A stretch of 26,366 nt of DNA from a virus. This document shows positions 3,819 through 20,249 of the stretch, one piece after another. Positions within the stretch are counted from its first letter, which is position 1. Each line of letters opens with the position of its first letter. The DNA lies in IMG/VR virus record IMGVR_UViG_3300032285_001298, positions 1 to 26,366 of that record; one strand, 5' to 3'. Under the pieces are notes generated by a model. It made no database searches. It saw only the letters and a program-made list of their open reading frames with translations, and had not been told where the DNA came from. The position numbers and the translations under genes are program-made.

Positions 3819-4027
3819 ACCAACTACAAGCCTTAACGATGCTGACGCTCATGCATACAGCACCCATGCAACCACAGACTTATTATGTGGCAAATCTATC
3901 CGAGAACGATGGAGCCAATTGTGGATCATACTACATGGTTTTCCCACAGAACCAAGTAATGCCACAGCAATATGCACCTATAACGCCATGCGTTATGGAT
4001 GAGCATGAAGGTTATTCGGAGGAATAA
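3815..4027 (+). CDS. Small hypothetical protein, 70 aa
   Basis: Start at ATG 3815 chosen because it overlaps the previous stop (ATGA); the longer frame from 3758 runs inside the previous gene. The product is Met/Gln-rich (MNQLQALTMLTLMHTAPMQP) with an acidic end (MDEHEGYSEE). The codons near its stop carry the GGAGG that serves the following methyltransferase, and its TAA overlaps that gene's ATG. Family not recognised. Confidence 0.65.
   Translation: MNQLQALTMLTLMHTAPMQPQTYYVANLSENDGANCGSYYMVFPQNQVMPQQYAPITPCVMDEHEGYSEE
4018..4022 (+). promoter_or_regulatory. Shared Shine-Dalgarno GGAGG for two overlapping starts
   Basis: GGAGG lies 4 nt before ATG 4027 (methyltransferase) and 8 nt before ATG 4031 (overlapping frame). 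The sequence reads ATGAATG, so two starts four bases apart share one site. The 8-nt spacing is closer to the usual optimum than the 4-nt spacing. Confidence 0.7.
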
Positions 4028-4905
4028 TGAATGAGCTACACTTATTTGCTGGAGTCGGGGGAGGAATACTCGGCGGGATGCTTCTCGGACATACCACAGT
4101 ATGTGCTGTTGAGCTTGAACCTTATTGCCGTCGAGTCTTGCTCCAGCGGCAACGAGAAGGCTGGCTTCCAAGATTTCCAATCTGGGACGATGTTACCACT
4201 TTTGATGGAAAGCCCTGGAGGGGAAAAGTTGACATTGTTGCAGGAGGATTCCCTTGCCAAGACATCTCTTCAGCAGGAAAGGGAGAAGGAATTACAGGCG
4301 AAAGAAGCGGTCTTTGGAAAGAAATGTCGAGAATCATTTGTGAGGTTCGACCCAGATACGCTTTCGTGGAAAACTCACCAATGCTCACTTCTAGAGGATT
4401 GGGAATCGTTCTCGGAGACTTGGCCTCAATGGGGTATAATGCAAGATGGGGAGTGTTGGGAGCCGACAATCTTTTTGCCCCACATTCTAGAAAGCGAATT
4501 TGGATTGTTAGTGAATTGCGGGGGGGGGGGGGCCACAATATGGCCAACTCCAACAGCCTGTATGAGCAAGGGAACCAATGTGAATGCCCTAACAAGAAAG
4601 AATGGAAGGAGCAGGGAGAGGGATCGTCTAGACCATGCTGTCCTTCATATGATGGTGTTTCCTACACCCCAAGCAAGCGATCACAAAGATCGAGGTCATG
4701 TTGGTTCTCTTTCGATCCAGCGGAGATTGGAGAAGGGAAAGCAAATCAACCTCTCAATGACAGTATCAAAGAAACATGGGGCATTGAATCCAGAGTGGGT
4801 AGAGTGGCTCATGGCATTCCCAATAGGGTGGACAGACTCAAAGCCCTTGGAAACGCCCAGGTTCCAATCGTGGCGGCAACAGCATTCAAAATCTTAAAAC
4901 CATGA
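4027..4905 (+). CDS. C5 cytosine DNA methyltransferase (Dcm-type)
   Basis: A 292-residue enzyme expected to transfer a methyl group from S-adenosylmethionine to C5 of cytosine. Visible motifs: motif I FAGVGGG (residues 7-13); motif IV GGFPCQ (73-78) with catalytic Cys77; motif VI ENS (115-117); motif VIII-like RKRIWIV (155-161); and motif X, RLKALGNAQVP, about 25 residues from the end. The target-recognition region is short and low-complexity. It begins with four Gly encoded by a 13-G tract and continues MANSNS. The target site cannot be read from sequence. A likely role is protection from host restriction, or epigenetic control. Its ATG overlaps the upstream TAA, and its stop overlaps the next ATG. 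The whole gene is overlapped by another long frame. Confidence 0.95.
   Translation: MNELHLFAGVGGGILGGMLLGHTTVCAVELEPYCRRVLLQRQREGWLPRFPIWDDVTTFDGKPWRGKVDIVAGGFPCQDISSAGKGEGITGERSGLWKEMSRIICEVRPRYAFVENSPMLTSRGLGIVLGDLASMGYNARWGVLGADNLFAPHSRKRIWIVSELRGGGGHNMANSNSLYEQGNQCECPNKKEWKEQGEGSSRPCCPSYDGVSYTPSKRSQRSRSCWFSFDPAEIGEGKANQPLNDSIKETWGIESRVGRVAHGIPNRVDRLKALGNAQVPIVAATAFKILKP
4031..4897 (+). CDS. Overlapping +1-frame ORF with WPTP / WVEWLM-x-FPIGWTD motifs
   Basis: A 288-codon frame runs uninterrupted inside the methyltransferase gene, starting 4 nt after its ATG and ending 8 nt before its stop. It is not random text. Residues ~100-145 read SFVRFDPDTLSWKT...SLLEDW...FSETWPQWGIMQDGECW; then WPTPTA (171-176), FPTPQASDHKDRG (210-222) and ALNPEWVEWLMAFPIGWTD (251-269). 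From memory, this motif series is widespread in phage and bacterial proteins, both stand-alone and as the C-terminal half of C5 methyltransferases, where GFPxGW resembles motif IX. The first ~95 residues are less recognisable. The ORF may be a true overprinted gene, or the alternative C-terminal half reached by slippage at the G tract. Function unknown. Confidence 0.65.
   Translation: MSYTYLLESGEEYSAGCFSDIPQYVLLSLNLIAVESCSSGNEKAGFQDFQSGTMLPLLMESPGGEKLTLLQEDSLAKTSLQQEREKELQAKEAVFGKKCRESFVRFDPDTLSWKTHQCSLLEDWESFSETWPQWGIMQDGECWEPTIFLPHILESEFGLLVNCGGGGATIWPTPTACMSKGTNVNALTRKNGRSRERDRLDHAVLHMMVFPTPQASDHKDRGHVGSLSIQRRLEKGKQINLSMTVSKKHGALNPEWVEWLMAFPIGWTDSKPLETPRFQSWRQQHSKS
4520..4532 (+). repeat. 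Homopolymeric G13 tract inside methyltransferase gene
   Basis: Thirteen consecutive G lie just after the motif VIII region of the methyltransferase. In the 4027 frame they code for Gly, and also Gly in the 4031 frame. Loss of one G would join the catalytic half to the WPTP...GWTD frame, ending at 4897. Gain of one G would join the N-terminus of the 4031 frame to the motif X frame. Such tracts are classical phase-variation sites but are also prone to sequencing error. Confidence 0.85.
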
Positions 4906-7707: not shown

Positions 7708-10700
7708 TTATTGCAACCCTCTTCCTGTTCTTTGCCTTGATTGGAAAGACTTCTCGTATTCTTCAATGTCGGCAGGGGTTTCAAGCCTTGTTCCAAGGAA
7801 TGCGGCTGAACCAGCTTTTGCGGCGGCAGGAATAAATTCCTTTTGCGTTGCGGCTTCTGAAATAGGAATAGGAGCAAATTGCTCTTGCACAATTTCACCC
7901 CATGTCAGCCTGCGGCGACCACGATCTGGTTGCTGGCTAGACCAAGGAACAACATTTCCAAGGTAATCCTTTCCAGTTGCGCCAACAATAATGTCACGGG
8001 TAATAGGGCTAAATCCGCTTCTAAAGTATGTGTAAAGAGCATCCTTCATGGCGGCCTCCCTGCCACCACGGGCTTTTTGGATTCGTGTAAGATCGCCAAA
8101 TACAGCGTTGTATTCTTGAGCAACCAACCTAGCAATGCGAGTAAATGCCCCAATGGTAGAGAGATTGTATCCAAATCCCTTGTATGCCAGCCAATCATTC
8201 TTCTTTGGGTTAAAGAAATTGATGTTCTGATTGCTTCCAGTAACAGAAAGTAGTGCTTGGTTTGCAAGCAATGTACCAGTTAGGAATCCCAAGAACTTTG
8301 CTTTATTCTTGGCTTCGTAGAATGCAGACATTCTTTCTTCTGGTGTAACTTTTGTTAAGGGATTTGCCATCTTTGCAAATGTTCCAAGCATCTTTGCAGG
8401 ATCTTGAATCAACCATTTGAATCGGCTTGCAATAAGTTTAGGAGCAAAGAAAAGAACCTTTGTAATTGGGCTTTGCAGTATTCCCTTTGTTCGATCTCCA
8501 CCCTTAGTAAATCCAGTTGCATTGTTAATGCTTTCAGCAAGCATTTCTGCCATCTCTGGTGTCCTTTGAGTGATGCTTAATTTTTCCCATGCTTGGTCAA
8601 ACATATCTTGACGCAAATGGAAAAGAGCATCGAATCCACGACCTCCGCTAATTGTATCCAATGCCCTAGCCAAAGCAGTATCGCTTCTTGCTGGAGTTGC
8701 ACCCTCTCTTCTGGTTTCCCTTGGGTCATTTTCCAATCCAGCCCTACGAGCAACAGTCCAGTTGGGTCTATAGATCAGATCCTTGTTATCAACAATGTTT
8801 TGAATGCGACCATTCTTGCCACGGAAAGAATAAGAAAGACCTTTTAACCAAGCCTTAAATGCCGCCCTTGGATGAGTATAAAGAGTTGTTGGTGCGTGAG
8901 TTCCAATGAATGCAGTCCCGTGACCAAAGATTGCCAATTTGAATGTCTTTTCAGCAAGTGATCCAAATACACGACCAACCCAACTTGCTTTCTGATTTTC
9001 CAACCAGCGTTTTGCTTCATCCAAAGCCATTTGCCTATTGCGTTGCTTCAGATACATATCATCAGAAACCTTCTTTGCTCCCTTTGGAGAAGCCAATCCT
9101 CTCCTTACTTGATCTGGAAGAAGCCCAAGGTCACTAGCTAGATCGTTTACCATCTTGTCCCAATCGCTTTCTCCTTTATCAAGGTAGAATTTCTTTGCGG
9201 TTTCCCACAAGGTTTTGACTTGTTCTGGGTTTAGCTTTTCACCAATCTTGTCTTTAGCAAAAAGATCACGCTGTTTAGCTTTTAGACGAGCATCAGAAAG
9301 TTGTTGCTTCTTTTCAGCAAGATCCTTCTCAAGTCCTTGGATTTCTTCATTGGTAACTTTTTCAACATCTTTAGGAGTAGTTACACGACCTTCCTCAATG
9401 TCTTTAATCTTTTTCTCGTATTGAGAAATACGCTTTCGGAGATTGTCTGCGGCTTTCTCGGCAAGAGTTAATGGCTTTTCGGTAAGTTTCTTTTTAAGTT
9501 CAGAGATTTGTTTTCTCTGTTGCTTTGTTTGATCCTCAAGTGCCTTAATCCTATCATTTGTTGCTTTTTGAGAAGTCTTTGACTCTGGTAGTTTTCCTTC
9601 TTTTAAGGATGCTATTTTTTCTTCATTGTCAGAAACTTGTTTTTCCAAGCTCTTGATTCGGCGATATTCTGGAGATGATTTAGACCTAATGGTTTTTACT
9701 GCTTTTTCGCCACCGTTTTCTCCATTGATTAATTCATGTGCCTTTGCCCATGCATCTTTCAAAGAAGGTTTAATTTTAGGGCCAAACTTTTCAATAAGCA
9801 TTGCGGAGGATTTTGTAAAATCCAATGCAAGTTCACCAATATGCGCCCTCATTATCCTAGCAAGAGTTAAAATAATTGTAGGATCTGGCGATGACCCCAT
9901 TTGATTAAGCTGTTTCCTTAATTGCTTTTCAGCTTCAGCGGCATCAGCTTTCCACTTATCAACAATCTTTCTAGCTTGTTCAAATACTTCTTTCCCAAAC
10001 TTTGGTTGTGATTCAAGTTGGTTATTAAGATCACGAATCTTTGCTTCGTAGTAACTCTTCAAAGACTCTGCATCTTGACCAGTTTCTTTGGCTTGCCTTA
10101 CTTCCTCAAGCGTTTGCTTTGTTTGTTCAAGTTCACTATTCAGCCTATCAATCTCATCCTTTGCCTTCTTTCCTTGTGCATCAGATAGATCAGCAATCTG
10201 TTGTTGTCCTTCCTCGACTGATTCTGGTGTCTTTACATCAACATCAGAAAGCGATTCATCCAGAGTATCACGAACTTTTTGAGTAGCCTCGCCAGCTTCT
10301 TTTATGCTTGTGTCAACCTTATCAGCAACTTTCCTAATCTGTTCATGCTGTGAAAGCGTAGGCTCTTGTCCTGTAATCTTTGTATATTCACGGGCAATAT
10401 CAGCGGCATCAGAAAGATCAGTCTCGCCTTGGAATGTCCTTAAAATATCAGAAGCAATAGTTCCAGCTTCTCGTATGCCTTCGTAGTAATCTTGATATTG
10501 CTTGGCAAGATCCTTGTACTCTTTGGATTGTGGGCCAAACTTTTTAAGAGCTTCACTCACTTGTTTTGCCAATGCATTTGCATATGCTTTGGCAGTAGTA
10601 AGAGCATTAAAGTCACCTTGCTTGGCTTTCTCTAAAGCATTGAAAGGATCAGCACCATTTCGTAAATTGGCATTTCCTTGTTCAATTATTCCAGCCCTAG

Positions 10701-13700
10701 AAGTGCCTTCTCCAGCAGGAACGGGGGATGTAAGGATTCCCCTACGAACTTGATCTTCTTGATCCTTTGTGCGAATGGAAATCTTTTCTGGAGTTTCCTC
10801 GGTAGTAACGGGAGGCTTTACTTCAGCAACGGGTGGCTTTGGCTTTCCTGTGGCAGATGCGTAAAGATCAGATGCCTCACGGGAGGTGATGCCAGGGAAC
10901 TTCCTAGACAGGATGTTTTGCATCTCTTGCTCTGTGATAGGTTCCATCTTACCTTTGGCAACCGCATCGGCAACTTTCTTGGCAAAAGCCAATCTTTCAT
11001 CCTGTGCCTTTGGCTTGAATCGCTCATCAGCACCAATGTCAATAGATCCACGCTCGGCGGCTCTTTCTAGGATTCTCCCTCCACCAGTAGAGATGGCATG
11101 GTAGATCTGACGCAGATACTTACGGACACCATCTCCAAGGCGTGAAGCCATATCCCTAGACCAATCGGCAAAGGATTTTCCAGCTTTGGAAAGCGATTTT
11201 GCTACATCGACAACTCCATCATAGATGATCTTTGGAAAATCGGTAAATGCCGCTTCGCCGCCCTTTCTTCTTGAATCAAACCAATCTTGAAGCTCTTGGT
11301 TCCTTTCTTGTTCAAACAATTCGGGATTAGTTGTGCGTAATTTTTCGGTTTCCTTTGCTCTGTTGAGAACCTGTCTTCCTAGTTTTTCAAGTCGCGCCTC
11401 TTCAGCTTGCCTCTTTTCAGCGGATTTTGATGATTGCTCAATACGATTCCATAAATCGGATGCGGTTGAACCCTCTGGCATCAATCCTTGATCGACCAAT
11501 GCCTCTACTGCTGTATCAATAGGTTCTCCTCTAGTGCTATAAATCTGTGAAGCGTGACCTTTATTGATGGTTGGAGCATCATCGTAAACACCTCCTCCTT
11601 CTTTTATTTCACCCTTTTTAACACGCCTCAAGTATTCGGACTTGGACATGATTGGGTTTTCTTGGAGGTATGCCATTACAGGGTCAATTCCAAGGTATCC
11701 ACCTTGAAGCTCTCTAGCACCCCTCTTAACGCTAGGAATCGGTTCTGGAGGGTTGTCGTGATGGTTTGCTTCTCTTTCTATTGATGAAAGCAATGCCTCA
11801 ACATCTGGATCTTCGCCAACTTCCATTTGCTCCCTAAATTTATCAACGGCGGCTTTTAGGTACTTGTTTTTTTCTTTCTTTGCCACTTCAGCGGCGGCAT
11901 CAGCAAAATCTCCATGCGTCCTAATTTCGTGATAGAATCGGTTTAGGAGATCGGTGTACGGATTGGTTGGCTTTGGAGCCTCACCCAAAGGAAGCTGTTG
12001 CTCTTCCTCTGTGCCTACGGTTGGATTCTCTGGCTCTGGAGCCATTGTCTCTCCAGCCAGATTGAATGGTAGCTCTTTCTCTTGGAAAAGGTTTCCTTCT
12101 CCATGAGTTTCAATTGTTGGAGTAGTTGGCTTTTGCTCAATAGGTGATTCTATTTTTTCTCTTGGTATATTTGCCTCTTTTCCATCTTCAAAACGAACTG
12201 GAACACGACCGAATGAAGTAGTTCCTACAACTTTTCCATTTTTTCCTTCTACGGAAACAGGCTTTCCCATGTAGTTAGATGATTCACGCTTTTCTTTTGC
12301 AATCTTTTCTTTAGCGGTAAGATTTCCAGTAAGATCGCGTTTTCTTGCAGATGCTTGCATTCCCAATGCTTTAAGCTGTTTTGGAATCTGATCTATAGAT
12401 GGGCCGTTGCGATTTTCTATTGCCGCTTTGTAATCATCCTCTAGTTGCTTTCTTTTCTTTTTTACAAAAGCATCTACCTCTTCTACTGTTTGAGCTTGGT
12501 AAACGCTGTAATACTTGGATACATCTACTTCTTCTTGGGGCTTTTCTTCACCTTGCGGGGCAGGGACTTCTGCTTCGTTTTCTGCGCCCACTCCTTCGCC
12601 CACGGCTGGTGCGTTGCGAACGCCCACTTCTCTTGCGCCTTGCTTCTGAACGGACTCATTTTGTTGTGTAGGTTGTGCTGGTTCTTCAGCAGATGGTTCT
12701 CCATACAATACAAGTTCCCTTTGTTTCAAAAGTTCAACTTGCTGTAAACGATTTTGATCAATTCTATCTTGAATTTGCCTCCTTCCAACGCTCCCTTGTG
12801 GATATTTTGGAAGCTCTTCAATAACAAGCCTATTGTTCTCGTTTGTAAGATCTTGAATCTGTTGGTTTACATCGGACGCTACAGGAGCTTCAGCGGGTTT
12901 GTTTAATGCATCAATCTGTTGCTGAATTGCAGTATGCTCTGGCGATCCTTCGTCGTGGAACGCCTGTTCAATGGTTAGACTACGCAAATCATTCGCAGGA
13001 GTTTCAGCAACAAGAGCAGGAGCTTCTTCTGTTGGCTTTGGAGCTTCTGGGATAGGAGCTTGGGAATCAGCGGATGCGAGAATCTGTGCCTCACGCTCGT
13101 TGACTACGGGATTAGCAGAGGGAGCCACCTCTGGAGCAGGGCCTCCAAGTTGAGCGTCAGCTTTTTTCTTTGCTTCTGCGCTTGCTTCCATCCCTGTGGA
13201 CAATCCATGCAATGCACCAAACAGAATATCTTGAGTAGTTCCTTCGGCGGTAAGCATCAAGGGCTGACCTTCCAATCCTCGCAATCCAGCGGATGTTGCC
13301 ACATTAACTCCAGCGGCGGCGGCTCCTCCAGCTAATCCTTTAACAAGAGGAGTTGCTTCTTTGAGTAATGCCCCTGTAGCTTCTGATGTCAACTTGCCGC
13401 CAACAAGGTATGCTCCAAGTTGGGGAACGGTTGCTACAGCGGCTTGGCTTCCAGCCTCATGCCCTGCATCATCAATTGACTTTTGATCAGTAATGCCTTG
13501 CTTTTTAAGTTCATTAACCTTTGAATCGTATGCTTCTGCATATGCTTGATTTCCAGCTTGAACAGCAGTCAATGGAATACCTAATCCACCAGTCAACATT
13601 GCTGGAGCCATTCCAAAAATGCTACCCAATCCACGACCGATTCCAGCGGCAGTAGATGCATCTTGCGGATTTGCGTTGTAAATAGTCTCTGCTTCCTTTG

Positions 13701-14805
13701 ATGCTTGAGACATCAAATTAGCTTGCTGTGCGGCTTCTTGCCTTCTTGTTGCAAGGTCGGCTTGCTCTTGAGGTGTAAATTCTTGCCCACCAAGAGTAGC
13801 TTGCTTCTGAACTTGAGTATTCTGAATCTGCTGTTTTAGCTGATTAATGCGGTTTTGATCATCGGCTGTAGCAAATCCTTTTTTGGCAACAACAGATTGA
13901 AGGCTATTTAATGCGGCTTGTTGATCTGCAATAGATTTATCAAAAGTTGCAGTTGCTTCTTCTGGTGTTTGTTCAGCCCTAGATAACCCTCTTAATTCAC
14001 CGCCTATAGTGTTGATTACGCTTTTGGCGGCGGCGGCGGCAAACTGATTTGGCAATGCTTGATACCAAGGTTGTGAAGGAACATAATCTGGCCCGACATC
14101 ACCAAAAGTTTGTGCTTTTCCAGTATTTGTAGGAGCAGTCCCAAAGCTGGCAGGAGTTTCTTGTGAAGGAATCAGATCAGCAAATGGATTATCGGGCAAT
14201 CCCTTGGATGCTTGTGATTGGAATGCGGCTCCAGTAGATTGGGATGATTGATCGTTCTTTGGGATCAAATCAGCAAAGGGATTCTCCATCTGTTGCTGTT
14301 GCGTCTGTGATCCTTGCTGAATCCTTCCAAGGCTAGTATAAGCACCTTCTCCCTCTGGAACCTTTCCAAAGTTCTTTAGCAATTCACCAACCCCACCAGC
14401 AGTCTTTGGAATCTGATTAGCAGGGACTCTTCCCACAGGAACTAGATTCCTTTGACCAGAAAAACCCGTGTATTGTGAGGGAGGAGTGTAAATATCAATG
14501 ACATTGGGATTGGCATTCCCATGCTTGTCTCCAGCGACATATGCCTCACCAGTATCGGCATCCTTGAAGATTGTTCCTATAGGGTAAACATCTGGATTTA
14601 CGGCTACAACACCTGGAGCCAACTCGTTATCTGAAGATCCGTGACCTTGCGCTGTTCCAGAATCATACGACTCATCAGCACCTCCCACAGAAGCAGGAAT
14701 GCTGTAGGTAGTAACAGGCGTAGGACTAGCAACAGGGAGATTGATTACACCGCCCTGTTCTGACCCTCTTTGGGGAATTAGGTCGGCAAACGGATTGTCT
14801 CCCAT
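7708..14805 (-). CDS. Giant virion/ejection protein with N-terminal 3D-like lytic domain
   Basis: A 2365-residue protein, 27% of the window. Residues ~45-110 resemble the 3D (double-psi barrel) domain of MltA-type wall hydrolases: SYDSGTAQGHGSS, GVVAVNPDVYPIGT, AYVAGDKHG and NVIDIY. The first of the three usual Asp is Asn here (VNP). NPFADLIP recurs at residues 4, 175 and 206. Residues ~385-510 are Gly/Ala-rich and hydrophobic (GLGSIFGMAPAMLTGG; LAGGAAAAGVNVATSAG), possibly membrane-active. Residues ~550-950 are low-complexity Pro/Glu/Gln linkers with an SH3-like patch near 845-885. Residues ~1480-1850 are long coiled coils. The last ~400 residues form a compact, better-ordered domain. By analogy with podovirus internal proteins it would be ejected to open the wall and guide DNA (inference). 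The ATG at 14805 is 3 nt after the previous stop. Confidence 0.85.
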   Translation of the reverse strand: MGDNPFADLIPQRGSEQGGVINLPVASPTPVTTYSIPASVGGADESYDSGTAQGHGSSDNELAPGVVAVNPDVYPIGTIFKDADTGEAYVAGDKHGNANPNVIDIYTPPSQYTGFSGQRNLVPVGRVPANQIPKTAGGVGELLKNFGKVPEGEGAYTSLGRIQQGSQTQQQQMENPFADLIPKNDQSSQSTGAAFQSQASKGLPDNPFADLIPSQETPASFGTAPTNTGKAQTFGDVGPDYVPSQPWYQALPNQFAAAAAKSVINTIGGELRGLSRAEQTPEEATATFDKSIADQQAALNSLQSVVAKKGFATADDQNRINQLKQQIQNTQVQKQATLGGQEFTPQEQADLATRRQEAAQQANLMSQASKEAETIYNANPQDASTAAGIGRGLGSIFGMAPAMLTGGLGIPLTAVQAGNQAYAEAYDSKVNELKKQGITDQKSIDDAGHEAGSQAAVATVPQLGAYLVGGKLTSEATGALLKEATPLVKGLAGGAAAAGVNVATSAGLRGLEGQPLMLTAEGTTQDILFGALHGLSTGMEASAEAKKKADAQLGGPAPEVAPSANPVVNEREAQILASADSQAPIPEAPKPTEEAPALVAETPANDLRSLTIEQAFHDEGSPEHTAIQQQIDALNKPAEAPVASDVNQQIQDLTNENNRLVIEELPKYPQGSVGRRQIQDRIDQNRLQQVELLKQRELVLYGEPSAEEPAQPTQQNESVQKQGAREVGVRNAPAVGEGVGAENEAEVPAPQGEEKPQEEVDVSKYYSVYQAQTVEEVDAFVKKKRKQLEDDYKAAIENRNGPSIDQIPKQLKALGMQASARKRDLTGNLTAKEKIAKEKRESSNYMGKPVSVEGKNGKVVGTTSFGRVPVRFEDGKEANIPREKIESPIEQKPTTPTIETHGEGNLFQEKELPFNLAGETMAPEPENPTVGTEEEQQLPLGEAPKPTNPYTDLLNRFYHEIRTHGDFADAAAEVAKKEKNKYLKAAVDKFREQMEVGEDPDVEALLSSIEREANHHDNPPEPIPSVKRGARELQGGYLGIDPVMAYLQENPIMSKSEYLRRVKKGEIKEGGGVYDDAPTINKGHASQIYSTRGEPIDTAVEALVDQGLMPEGSTASDLWNRIEQSSKSAEKRQAEEARLEKLGRQVLNRAKETEKLRTTNPELFEQERNQELQDWFDSRRKGGEAAFTDFPKIIYDGVVDVAKSLSKAGKSFADWSRDMASRLGDGVRKYLRQIYHAISTGGGRILERAAERGSIDIGADERFKPKAQDERLAFAKKVADAVAKGKMEPITEQEMQNILSRKFPGITSREASDLYASATGKPKPPVAEVKPPVTTEETPEKISIRTKDQEDQVRRGILTSPVPAGEGTSRAGIIEQGNANLRNGADPFNALEKAKQGDFNALTTAKAYANALAKQVSEALKKFGPQSKEYKDLAKQYQDYYEGIREAGTIASDILRTFQGETDLSDAADIAREYTKITGQEPTLSQHEQIRKVADKVDTSIKEAGEATQKVRDTLDESLSDVDVKTPESVEEGQQQIADLSDAQGKKAKDEIDRLNSELEQTKQTLEEVRQAKETGQDAESLKSYYEAKIRDLNNQLESQPKFGKEVFEQARKIVDKWKADAAEAEKQLRKQLNQMGSSPDPTIILTLARIMRAHIGELALDFTKSSAMLIEKFGPKIKPSLKDAWAKAHELINGENGGEKAVKTIRSKSSPEYRRIKSLEKQVSDNEEKIASLKEGKLPESKTSQKATNDRIKALEDQTKQQRKQISELKKKLTEKPLTLAEKAADNLRKRISQYEKKIKDIEEGRVTTPKDVEKVTNEEIQGLEKDLAEKKQQLSDARLKAKQRDLFAKDKIGEKLNPEQVKTLWETAKKFYLDKGESDWDKMVNDLASDLGLLPDQVRRGLASPKGAKKVSDDMYLKQRNRQMALDEAKRWLENQKASWVGRVFGSLAEKTFKLAIFGHGTAFIGTHAPTTLYTHPRAAFKAWLKGLSYSFRGKNGRIQNIVDNKDLIYRPNWTVARRAGLENDPRETRREGATPARSDTALARALDTISGGRGFDALFHLRQDMFDQAWEKLSITQRTPEMAEMLAESINNATGFTKGGDRTKGILQSPITKVLFFAPKLIASRFKWLIQDPAKMLGTFAKMANPLTKVTPEERMSAFYEAKNKAKFLGFLTGTLLANQALLSVTGSNQNINFFNPKKNDWLAYKGFGYNLSTIGAFTRIARLVAQEYNAVFGDLTRIQKARGGREAAMKDALYTYFRSGFSPITRDIIVGATGKDYLGNVVPWSSQQPDRGRRRLTWGEIVQEQFAPIPISEAATQKEFIPAAAKAGSAAFLGTRLETPADIEEYEKSFQSRQRTGRGLQ
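14167..14796 (-). repeat. Three NPFADLIP repeats in giant protein
   Basis: The octapeptide NPFADLIP is encoded at 14773-14796, 14260-14283 and 14167-14190, each preceded by Asp or Glu and separated by disordered Gln/Ser-rich linkers. The conserved short motif in variable surroundings suggests a linear docking motif, for example to another virion protein, or a processing signal. Confidence 0.85.
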
Positions 14806-18597: not shown

Positions 18598-19158
18598 TTA
18601 TGCACAATAGAATTTTTGAAGAGTATAGGACAATTGTATAGCTTTTCTCATATTTTCAATGTGTTTGCTAGACTTTTCCCTTCCTTTCCAGAATTGCGAC
18701 ATTTTCTTTCTGCTTTCTAAAGAATGGTTTTTACCAAAAAAAGAGTTTTTATTGCCGCTTTGATTTAGCGACATTTTCTCTTTTGTTTTAGTTGAATGTA
18801 TCTTTCCTTTTCCAGCTTCAGCTATTTTTAGTTTTGTTTCCTCAGAAACAATTTGACCATCTTTTCCCCCACCTAAAAGGTTGTAACCAAATTTGCGATT
18901 TATAGTTTTGTATTTTTCAATCCACTCTATTTCTCGCCAGTTCAGTAATTCATGAGGGCAAAACTCTAAAACAGAAAACTCAAAGGAATCTTCTCCATCT
19001 TGATTCCAAGCATTCTGAAAATGTCCGTTTCCGTTTGATCTGTTATTTAGAGTCCAAATATGATGCGTCTTGCGATCAAACATAACGACACTCTGCCCGA
19101 TATATCTCTTTCCGTTTTTCTTATTACGGAAACAATATATACCTGAGCTAGAGGCCAT
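18598..19158 (-). CDS. GIY-YIG homing endonuclease with NUMOD3
   Basis: A 186-residue protein. The GIY-YIG nuclease domain is clear: SGIYCFRNKKNGKRYIGQS (residues ~5-23) with GIY and YIG, then DRKTHH, EFSVLEFC, WREIEWIEKY (with the likely catalytic Glu) and FGYNLLGGG. NUMOD3-like DNA-binding segments follow: SEETKLKIAEAGKGK, and SLESRKKMSQFWKGR. The role is DNA cleavage that spreads the element into phage genomes lacking it. The gene is free-standing. Its ATG overlaps the upstream TAA as TAATG, and it ends one base before the downstream ATG, so it is inserted between two virion genes without breaking either. AT content is higher than in its neighbours, consistent with transfer. Confidence 0.92.
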   Translation of the reverse strand: MASSSGIYCFRNKKNGKRYIGQSVVMFDRKTHHIWTLNNRSNGNGHFQNAWNQDGEDSFEFSVLEFCPHELLNWREIEWIEKYKTINRKFGYNLLGGGKDGQIVSEETKLKIAEAGKGKIHSTKTKEKMSLNQSGNKNSFFGKNHSLESRKKMSQFWKGREKSSKHIENMRKAIQLSYTLQKFYCA

Positions 19159-19631: not shown

Positions 19632-20249
19632 TTAATTTATAGTAGAGTTGCTTGCCTCACGCAAGGCTTTCCTTTTTTGCTCTCTGATTTTTGCTTTAGC
19701 CCTCATTTTCTGTTTTGTTTCTTCTGAATGCACCCTATTCAATCCAGCTAACGCAAGGTTTTTCCTGTGTTCTATAGAAAAAGGCTTTTTAGATTTTCCT
19801 TTTTGGGCATTGCTTATCTTTTTTCTTGTTTCATCTGACCTTTTTAATCCCTTTGATGATAGAGATATTTTCTTTTTGTGTTCTTCAGAAAGTTTTTTCC
19901 CCTTTTTTGCCAAAGACATCTTTTGTCTACTTTCTTGAGAAATTCTCATCATTAAACCACCGCCTAGATGAATATTGTATCCATAGTTTCTATTGGCACT
20001 ATTAAAATAATTGATCCAAGAAACCTCCCTTACATCCATCATGTCTATATTACATTCTTCTAATACGTAAAATTCAAAAGATAACTCTCCATATTTATCC
20101 CAAGCACTCTGTAGATACTGATTTTTATGTTGTGCTTTTCTCAACAACAACAAATGGCTGATTTTTCTTTTTGCTATATTGGAACTTTGTCCAATATATC
20201 GTTTTCCATTTTCTAAATTATGCCAGCAATATATGCCAGAGACAATCAT
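19632..20249 (-). CDS. GIY-YIG homing endonuclease with NUMOD3 repeats
   Basis: A 205-residue protein. Nuclease domain: VSGIYCWHNLENGKRYIGQS (residues 3-22), AKRKISH, SAWDKYGELSFEFYVLEE, DVREVSWINYF and YGYNIHLGGG. It is followed by several NUMOD3-type helix-turn units (SQESRQKMSLAKKGKKL, SEEHKKKISLSSKG, SDETRKKISNAQKGK) and a further SIEHRKNLA / SEETKQKM segment. The C-terminus is very basic. The ATG overlaps the upstream TAA (TAATG), as for the other copy. It is related to but clearly divergent from the 18598-19158 gene, so the two were probably not produced by a recent local duplication. Lower GC than neighbours. Confidence 0.92.
   Translation of the reverse strand: MIVSGIYCWHNLENGKRYIGQSSNIAKRKISHLLLLRKAQHKNQYLQSAWDKYGELSFEFYVLEECNIDMMDVREVSWINYFNSANRNYGYNIHLGGGLMMRISQESRQKMSLAKKGKKLSEEHKKKISLSSKGLKRSDETRKKISNAQKGKSKKPFSIEHRKNLALAGLNRVHSEETKQKMRAKAKIREQKRKALREASNSTIN

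Follow-up and report, generated by a model that had tools for sequence, protein, structure and literature searches.

What a run of thirteen guanines does in the middle of a phage methyltransferase gene is the question raised by this viral DNA, a stretch of 26,366 nt called the window here. The run occupies positions 4520-4532, is the only run of eight or more Gs in the window, and alone accounts for six G8 matches, against a mean of 0.52 in dinucleotide shuffles. At the assembled length of 13, two reading frames stay open across it, both on the plus strand like every feature of the gene given below: frame 1 (4027-4905, 292 aa) and frame 2 (4031-4897, 288 aa), which overlaps nearly all of frame 1. 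The tract provides glycine codons in both. A Shine-Dalgarno-like GGAGG (4018-4022), of putative function, is read 5′ of both start codons, and scans for promoters and terminators gave no signal above chance. The upstream halves of frames 1 and 2 are named N1 and N2, the downstream halves C1 and C2, and motif X is abbreviated X. The initial annotation proposed that changes in tract length swap the C-terminal halves of the enzyme and could thereby switch its specificity or activity. The evidence points instead to a split C5-cytosine methyltransferase encoded in two overlapping frames, with the G13 tract as a joint ON/OFF switch, a reading to which a probability of about 0.7 is given. Elsewhere, the minus strand of the window carries two homing endonuclease genes (18598-19158 and 19632-20249; GIY-YIG family PHROGs) and one 2365-aa ORF (7708-14805), large for a 26-kb phage contig.

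The catalytic domain of a C5-cytosine DNA methyltransferase is found in frame 1, with motifs I, IV (PCQ), VI (ENS/V) and VIII. Matches are obtained to PF00145 over residues 3-165 (1.5e-29), to PHROG 363 over the whole length (5.8e-65) and to M.HhaI, the latter by profile (6e-27) and by Foldseek with the AlphaFold2 model. Motif IV, GGFPCQDIS, which holds the catalytic cysteine (4243-4269), is placed by invariant columns in alignment A3 and by the M.HhaI alignment. Motif VIII, HSRKRIWIV (4483-4509), is placed by alignments with relatives and with M.HhaI, and its codons are followed by 10 nt and then by the tract. Motif X, RLKALGNAQVP (4834-4866; alignment A3), is joined with the catalytic domain at G13 and shares the frame of motifs I-VIII in 306 of 311 relatives that lack a tract. 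The AlphaFold2 model is highly confident over residues 1-165 and in the helices of motif X, but not at all over residues 181-243; between motifs VIII and X, frame 1 has no visible constraint or predicted fold. Since this middle is unlike a target recognition region (TRD), the function drawn for an alpha-like chain composed of motifs I-VIII, the unconstrained middle and motif X rests on the analogy with M.EcoHK31I.

About 300 relatives conserve frame 2 across the gene, with its own start mostly 4 nt after the first; in 209 of 265 loci an NTG codon follows the frame 1 anchor by exactly 4 nt. All observed Asn-Glu starts are written with AAT, which creates the frame 2 ATG, AAC being commoner elsewhere in these genes. 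Frame 2 matches PHROG 1008 (1.4e-29) and otherwise smaller PHROGs alone, some of which likewise bear the name DNA methyltransferase. Loci of one kind are retrieved whether frame 1 or frame 2 is the query, and frame 2 is open throughout in 65 of the 69 loci retrieved with the frame 1 query alone. When synonymous codons were shuffled within each of 134 unique intact genes, the first 490 nt remained stop-free in frame 2 in 5.6% of the shuffles, against 98.5% of the real genes; from nt 490 to 60 nt before the end, the corresponding values are 26% and 97.8%. Both frames are already annotated as methyltransferases in some phage records, among them that of Paenibacillus phage Leyra (gp61 and gp62). 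The AlphaFold2 model of frame 2 is poor (pLDDT 57), too poor for a fold search. A second chain can be read in an alternative frame of the same gene, and would be translated from its own start.

Codon divergence tells which frame is selected where. In pairs 90-99% identical, divergence at frame 1 positions 1/2/3 is 0.047/0.017/0.130 before nt 480 of the gene, and 0.135/0.024/0.028 after it. The latter pattern is, by its distribution over codon positions, the signature of frame 2. In a sliding window, motifs I-VIII are under frame 1 constraint, which gives way to frame 2 constraint and returns over the final 60 nt, the place of motif X; signs of double constraint appear near nt 300-450. The closest relative follows the same course, with identities of 90% in frame 1 and 70% in frame 2 before the tract, and of 82% and 90%, respectively, after it. 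It could be argued that the homopolymer arose by chance and that frame 2 is a mere shadow of frame 1, given that N2 conservation partly mirrors the conserved frame 1 motifs and that amino-acid constraint on N2 is slight up to about nt 300. Stop avoidance far above that of synonymous shuffles, the third-position signature of frame 2 downstream, the conserved frame 2 start and the enrichment of tracts at the junction (see below) make this extremely improbable. On these data frame 2 is more than a by-product of the switch.

What frame 2 contributes is indicated by its downstream half. C2 runs from the WPTP repeats to motif IX (4541-4837), and the motif IX region, LNPEWVEWLMAFPIGWTD (4784-4837), was located with alignment A1 and a C5 methyltransferase profile alignment. 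In the single-chain enzyme of Gordonia phage Trax, VPQLEEWMMGFPPGWVT directly precedes motif X in the same frame; in the actinophages Pioneer, Samora, Andrew and Firecracker, the PTP repeats, a VPQLEEWMMGFPPGWVT-type segment and motif X are all in the +1 frame. The C2 profile aligns with the profile of these Trax and actinophage enzymes (hhalign 97.3%, E 1.8e-11), the alignment ending at LNPEWVEWLMGWPIGW against RLSPxFxEWMMGxPxGW. C2 is on this ground read as the target recognition region plus motif IX, which are found in frame 2 and not in frame 1. The suggestion of the initial annotation that the WPTP to GWTD segment belongs to other C5 methyltransferases is borne out by this profile alignment. 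Its placement of the tract between the catalytic half and the recognition region is likewise supported, the run coming directly behind motif VIII. No match to the C2 profile was found among PDB sequences, and the search with alignment A4 gave a single weak, unrelated match.

The profile alignment of C2 to the TRD and motif IX rules out an unrelated overprinted gene in frame 2, and a hidden HNH insertion there is contradicted by searches of Pfam and PHROGs, neither of which gave an HNH match. In 318 of 328 loci, C2 is shifted to +1 relative to motifs I-VIII, whose frame is resumed at motif X, which rules out N1-C2 as the ordinary full-length layout. A programmed frameshift as the sole source of C2 is disfavoured, since frame 2 has a conserved start codon of its own and no stops in its N half. 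Layouts of other kinds also occur. Four actinophage loci (L572, L573, L574 and L577) have the TRD, IX and X all in +1 after motif VIII, the order of M.AquI, and are annotated as two overlapping methyltransferase genes. Genes 74/75 of Mycobacterium phage Llama (L162) and gene 64 of phage SG4 (L163) are the same methyltransferase, split in the former and intact in the latter; the Llama split results from a single-base difference inside the catalytic half, where there is no homopolymer.

Tracts recur at the junction far more often than in the surrounding DNA. In 274 unique protein-retrieved loci, G or C runs of nine or more occur at 0.43 per kb at the junction versus 0.008 per kb outside the gene, an enrichment of about 50-fold. 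At least 62 viral loci pass the threshold of nine at this site, with runs of ten or more Gs (in one case Cs), a total that combines protein-retrieved loci with scans for G-run patterns. Protein-retrieved loci alone show G12-G14, and also C14, and a scan of viral contigs for G11 or longer followed by WPTP brought in a distant family with G11-G12 at the same site and 37-39% identity in motifs I-VIII. A search of isolated phages with a tract locus revealed no tract-bearing relative. Both upstream frames are open in 58 of 59 tract loci among the matches listed, with codon constraint unchanged; judged in this way, tract-bearing genes are not decaying.

A comparison of tract length in relatives, advised by the initial annotation, finds N1-C1-X, N1-C2 and truncated forms. 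Among the matches listed, 50 unique tract loci have both sides of the tract present: 21 of them keep motifs I-VIII and X in one frame, 16 lead from motifs I-VIII into C2 and 13 into the third frame, so that the phases are near equal (p=0.38). Ten of the at least 62 loci were left unphased, their contigs ending soon after the tract. Tract-free loci behave differently, 306 of 311 being in the single phase that joins motifs I-VIII to X (Fisher p=2.6e-24 versus tract loci); the same phase is found in 150 of the 152 tract-free loci retrieved by C2 alone, a query that does not depend on how the N half is phased. A range of tract lengths is found between flanks such as CACTCCAGACAC..ACATCTGGACT. Near-identical viruses may also differ, as in G11 (L172) versus G10 (L413), with 96.7% identity upstream and 99.8% downstream, and in G12 (L506) versus G14 (L548). 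The 44-kb contig IMGVR_UViG_3300025598_000065 (L009/L081) bears the tract at both ends, as G13 and as G14.

All these are assembly lengths, which short-read homopolymer error can shift by one, and the variation could in principle be mainly technical, stemming from PCR stutter or assembly error around a stable glycine linker. The lengths in the main flank family do centre on 13, short reads are error-prone in G runs, and there is one obvious artefact at a contig end, G43 in L477 where the 99.6% identical L084 has C14, probably a dark-cycle sequencing artefact at a C tract. Yet 29 of the 50 unique loci are off the in-frame phase among the matches listed, too many for consensus error, and a glycine linker does not need GGG codons alone. 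Near-identical contigs from different metagenomes agree in length (L412/L413, L491/L511 and L124/L126), which disfavours random assembly error, while diverged relatives differ. A technical origin is consequently improbable, and phase variation among relatives is well supported by the assembled sequences. The tract is a recurrent coding homopolymer whose predicted ON and OFF lengths both exist among relatives; the population of the window phage itself may be fixed at 13. The contigs of the closest relatives (L009/L081 and L082) are broken exactly at the tract.

Homopolymers are also found at other positions in these enzymes. A second poly-G site (G9-G11, about nt 241-262), right after motif IV, characterizes a different group of relatives (L032, L038, L051, L055, L057, L065, L067, L071, L075, L079, L085, L259 and L289), with a density of 2.08 per kb versus 0.008 outside the gene; nearly all of these loci are assembled in frame, L259 (G9) being out of frame, and the window has no tract there. 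Distant C5 methyltransferase families (L350, L370, L371, L382, L403, L409 and L437) contain G9-G11 runs about 540-1220 nt after the start of the catalytic-domain match.

The preferred mechanism would operate as follows. Frame 1 would give the alpha-like chain with motifs I-VIII and X, and frame 2, starting 4 nt later, the beta-like chain, which carries the TRD and motif IX; the G13 tract would lie in the loop between motif VIII and the TRD. Its length would change by slipped-strand mispairing during replication. With G13, both chains would be full length and the enzyme ON, activity presumably needing both of them. With G12, motifs I-VIII would be continued by the 120 codons of the TRD and motif IX and would lack motif X, while frame 2 would end about 10 codons on. 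With G14, the catalytic half would end about 10 codons past the tract and frame 2 would enter the frame of motif X. The frame arithmetic of the initial annotation is the same: loss of one G joins motifs I-VIII to the WPTP to GWTD frame, and gain of one G joins the other N-terminus to the motif X frame. The shifted phases part motifs I-VIII from X and also disrupt frame 2, and are for this reason read as an on/off switch for both subunits. The G12 and G14 states should be inactive, so that both subunits would go ON and OFF together, and a phage population would carry modified as well as unmodified genomes.

The likeliest role is that of a reversible switch that turns both subunits on or off together; the specificity swap is less likely. 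The swap assumes that each downstream frame supplies a recognition region, whereas the TRD and motif IX lie in frame 2 only and frame 1 offers motif X behind an unconstrained stretch, which argues against a change of specificity. It remains conceivable, with a low probability, that the minus-one N1-C2 form is a working enzyme or a DNA-binding form, the tract then swapping activity or specificity. Its parts follow the order of single-chain C5 methyltransferases up to motif IX, and it occurs in 16 of the 50 unique tract loci among the matches listed. It is not enriched over the truncated phase, however (16 versus 13 among the same matches), and is without motif X, which is conserved under frame 1 constraint. 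A three-state switch between the two-subunit enzyme, a catalytic-TRD fusion with a function of its own (altered or DNA-binding-only) and a truncated form has a similarly low probability.

Polymerases and ribosomes can slip on long G runs. The tract might accordingly be a site of transcriptional or ribosomal slippage at which N1-C2 is made alongside the two chains from one DNA length, in keeping with the move of constraint from frame 1 to frame 2 at this place. Such a role is improbable, as 306 of 311 tract-free loci show the same change of frame, frame 2 begins at a codon of its own and contains no stops upstream, and the DNA lengths of relatives fall in all three phases. The tract-free relatives also bear on the switch itself. 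The initial annotation had counted relatives that keep both frames without a G tract against its proposal, and they are the common case. Most relatives being tract-free, the switch is not essential to the system, and both frames being kept in them, the layout must have another reason, probably a split enzyme on which the tract is superimposed.

If the on/off reading is true, contingency loci for DNA modification are not confined to bacteria but are kept by phages too. A single lineage could then release a mixture of methylated and unmethylated genomes, a hedge between restriction enzymes that need a bare site and those that attack methylated DNA. The overlapping two-frame split C5 methyltransferase appears widespread in phages and prophages, and annotation often misses one of the frames or calls both methyltransferases. 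One characterised enzyme is named for the two-frame layout in the literature searched. Its small chain (M.EcoHK31I, target YGGCCR) is read from another frame inside the gene of the large chain. As described in PMC3404938, one chain of M.EcoHK31I has motifs I-VIII and X and the second has IX (Lee, Kam and Shaw 1995, via PMC3404938), the arrangement also seen in the window gene. The two differ, by the same description, in the TRD, which is predicted in the larger chain of M.EcoHK31I and corresponds to a constrained TRD-like segment of frame 2 here. M.EcoHK31I moreover belongs to a restriction-modification system for which this source reports no homopolymer switch, whereas the window gene is a phage gene with a G tract. 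M.AquI is likewise a C5 methyltransferase split after motif VIII, in the variable region; its motifs IX and X share the second chain according to PMC3404938, unlike the window gene, where X is in frame with I-VIII and not with IX.

A partial literature search found no report of a phase-variable phage C5 methyltransferase, which is weak evidence of novelty. Other systems resemble the locus in single aspects. The ShiLan domain, a mobile insertion by which a phage methylase gene comes to contain an out-of-frame HNH endonuclease (PMC11855218), shares with it a second reading frame hidden inside a methylase gene, but C2 is methyltransferase sequence without an HNH match and is present in nearly all relatives. 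In Helicobacter canadensis, poly-G length also alters C-terminal sequence rather than just stopping the protein (PMC2823697). This C-terminal phase variation mostly alters a few residues near the 3′ end, while the window tract sits in the middle of the gene, and a change in its length alters the set of conserved motifs that are fused. The bacterial phasevarions of type I and III mod genes offer a parallel in logic, in that the DNA methyltransferase gene contains a simple repeat within its coding sequence and is switched ON and OFF by slippage. Those reviewed are bacterial, mostly adenine-specific type I/III systems in which the OFF state truncates one ORF, whereas in the window a tract in a phage C5 enzyme would control two overlapping subunits.
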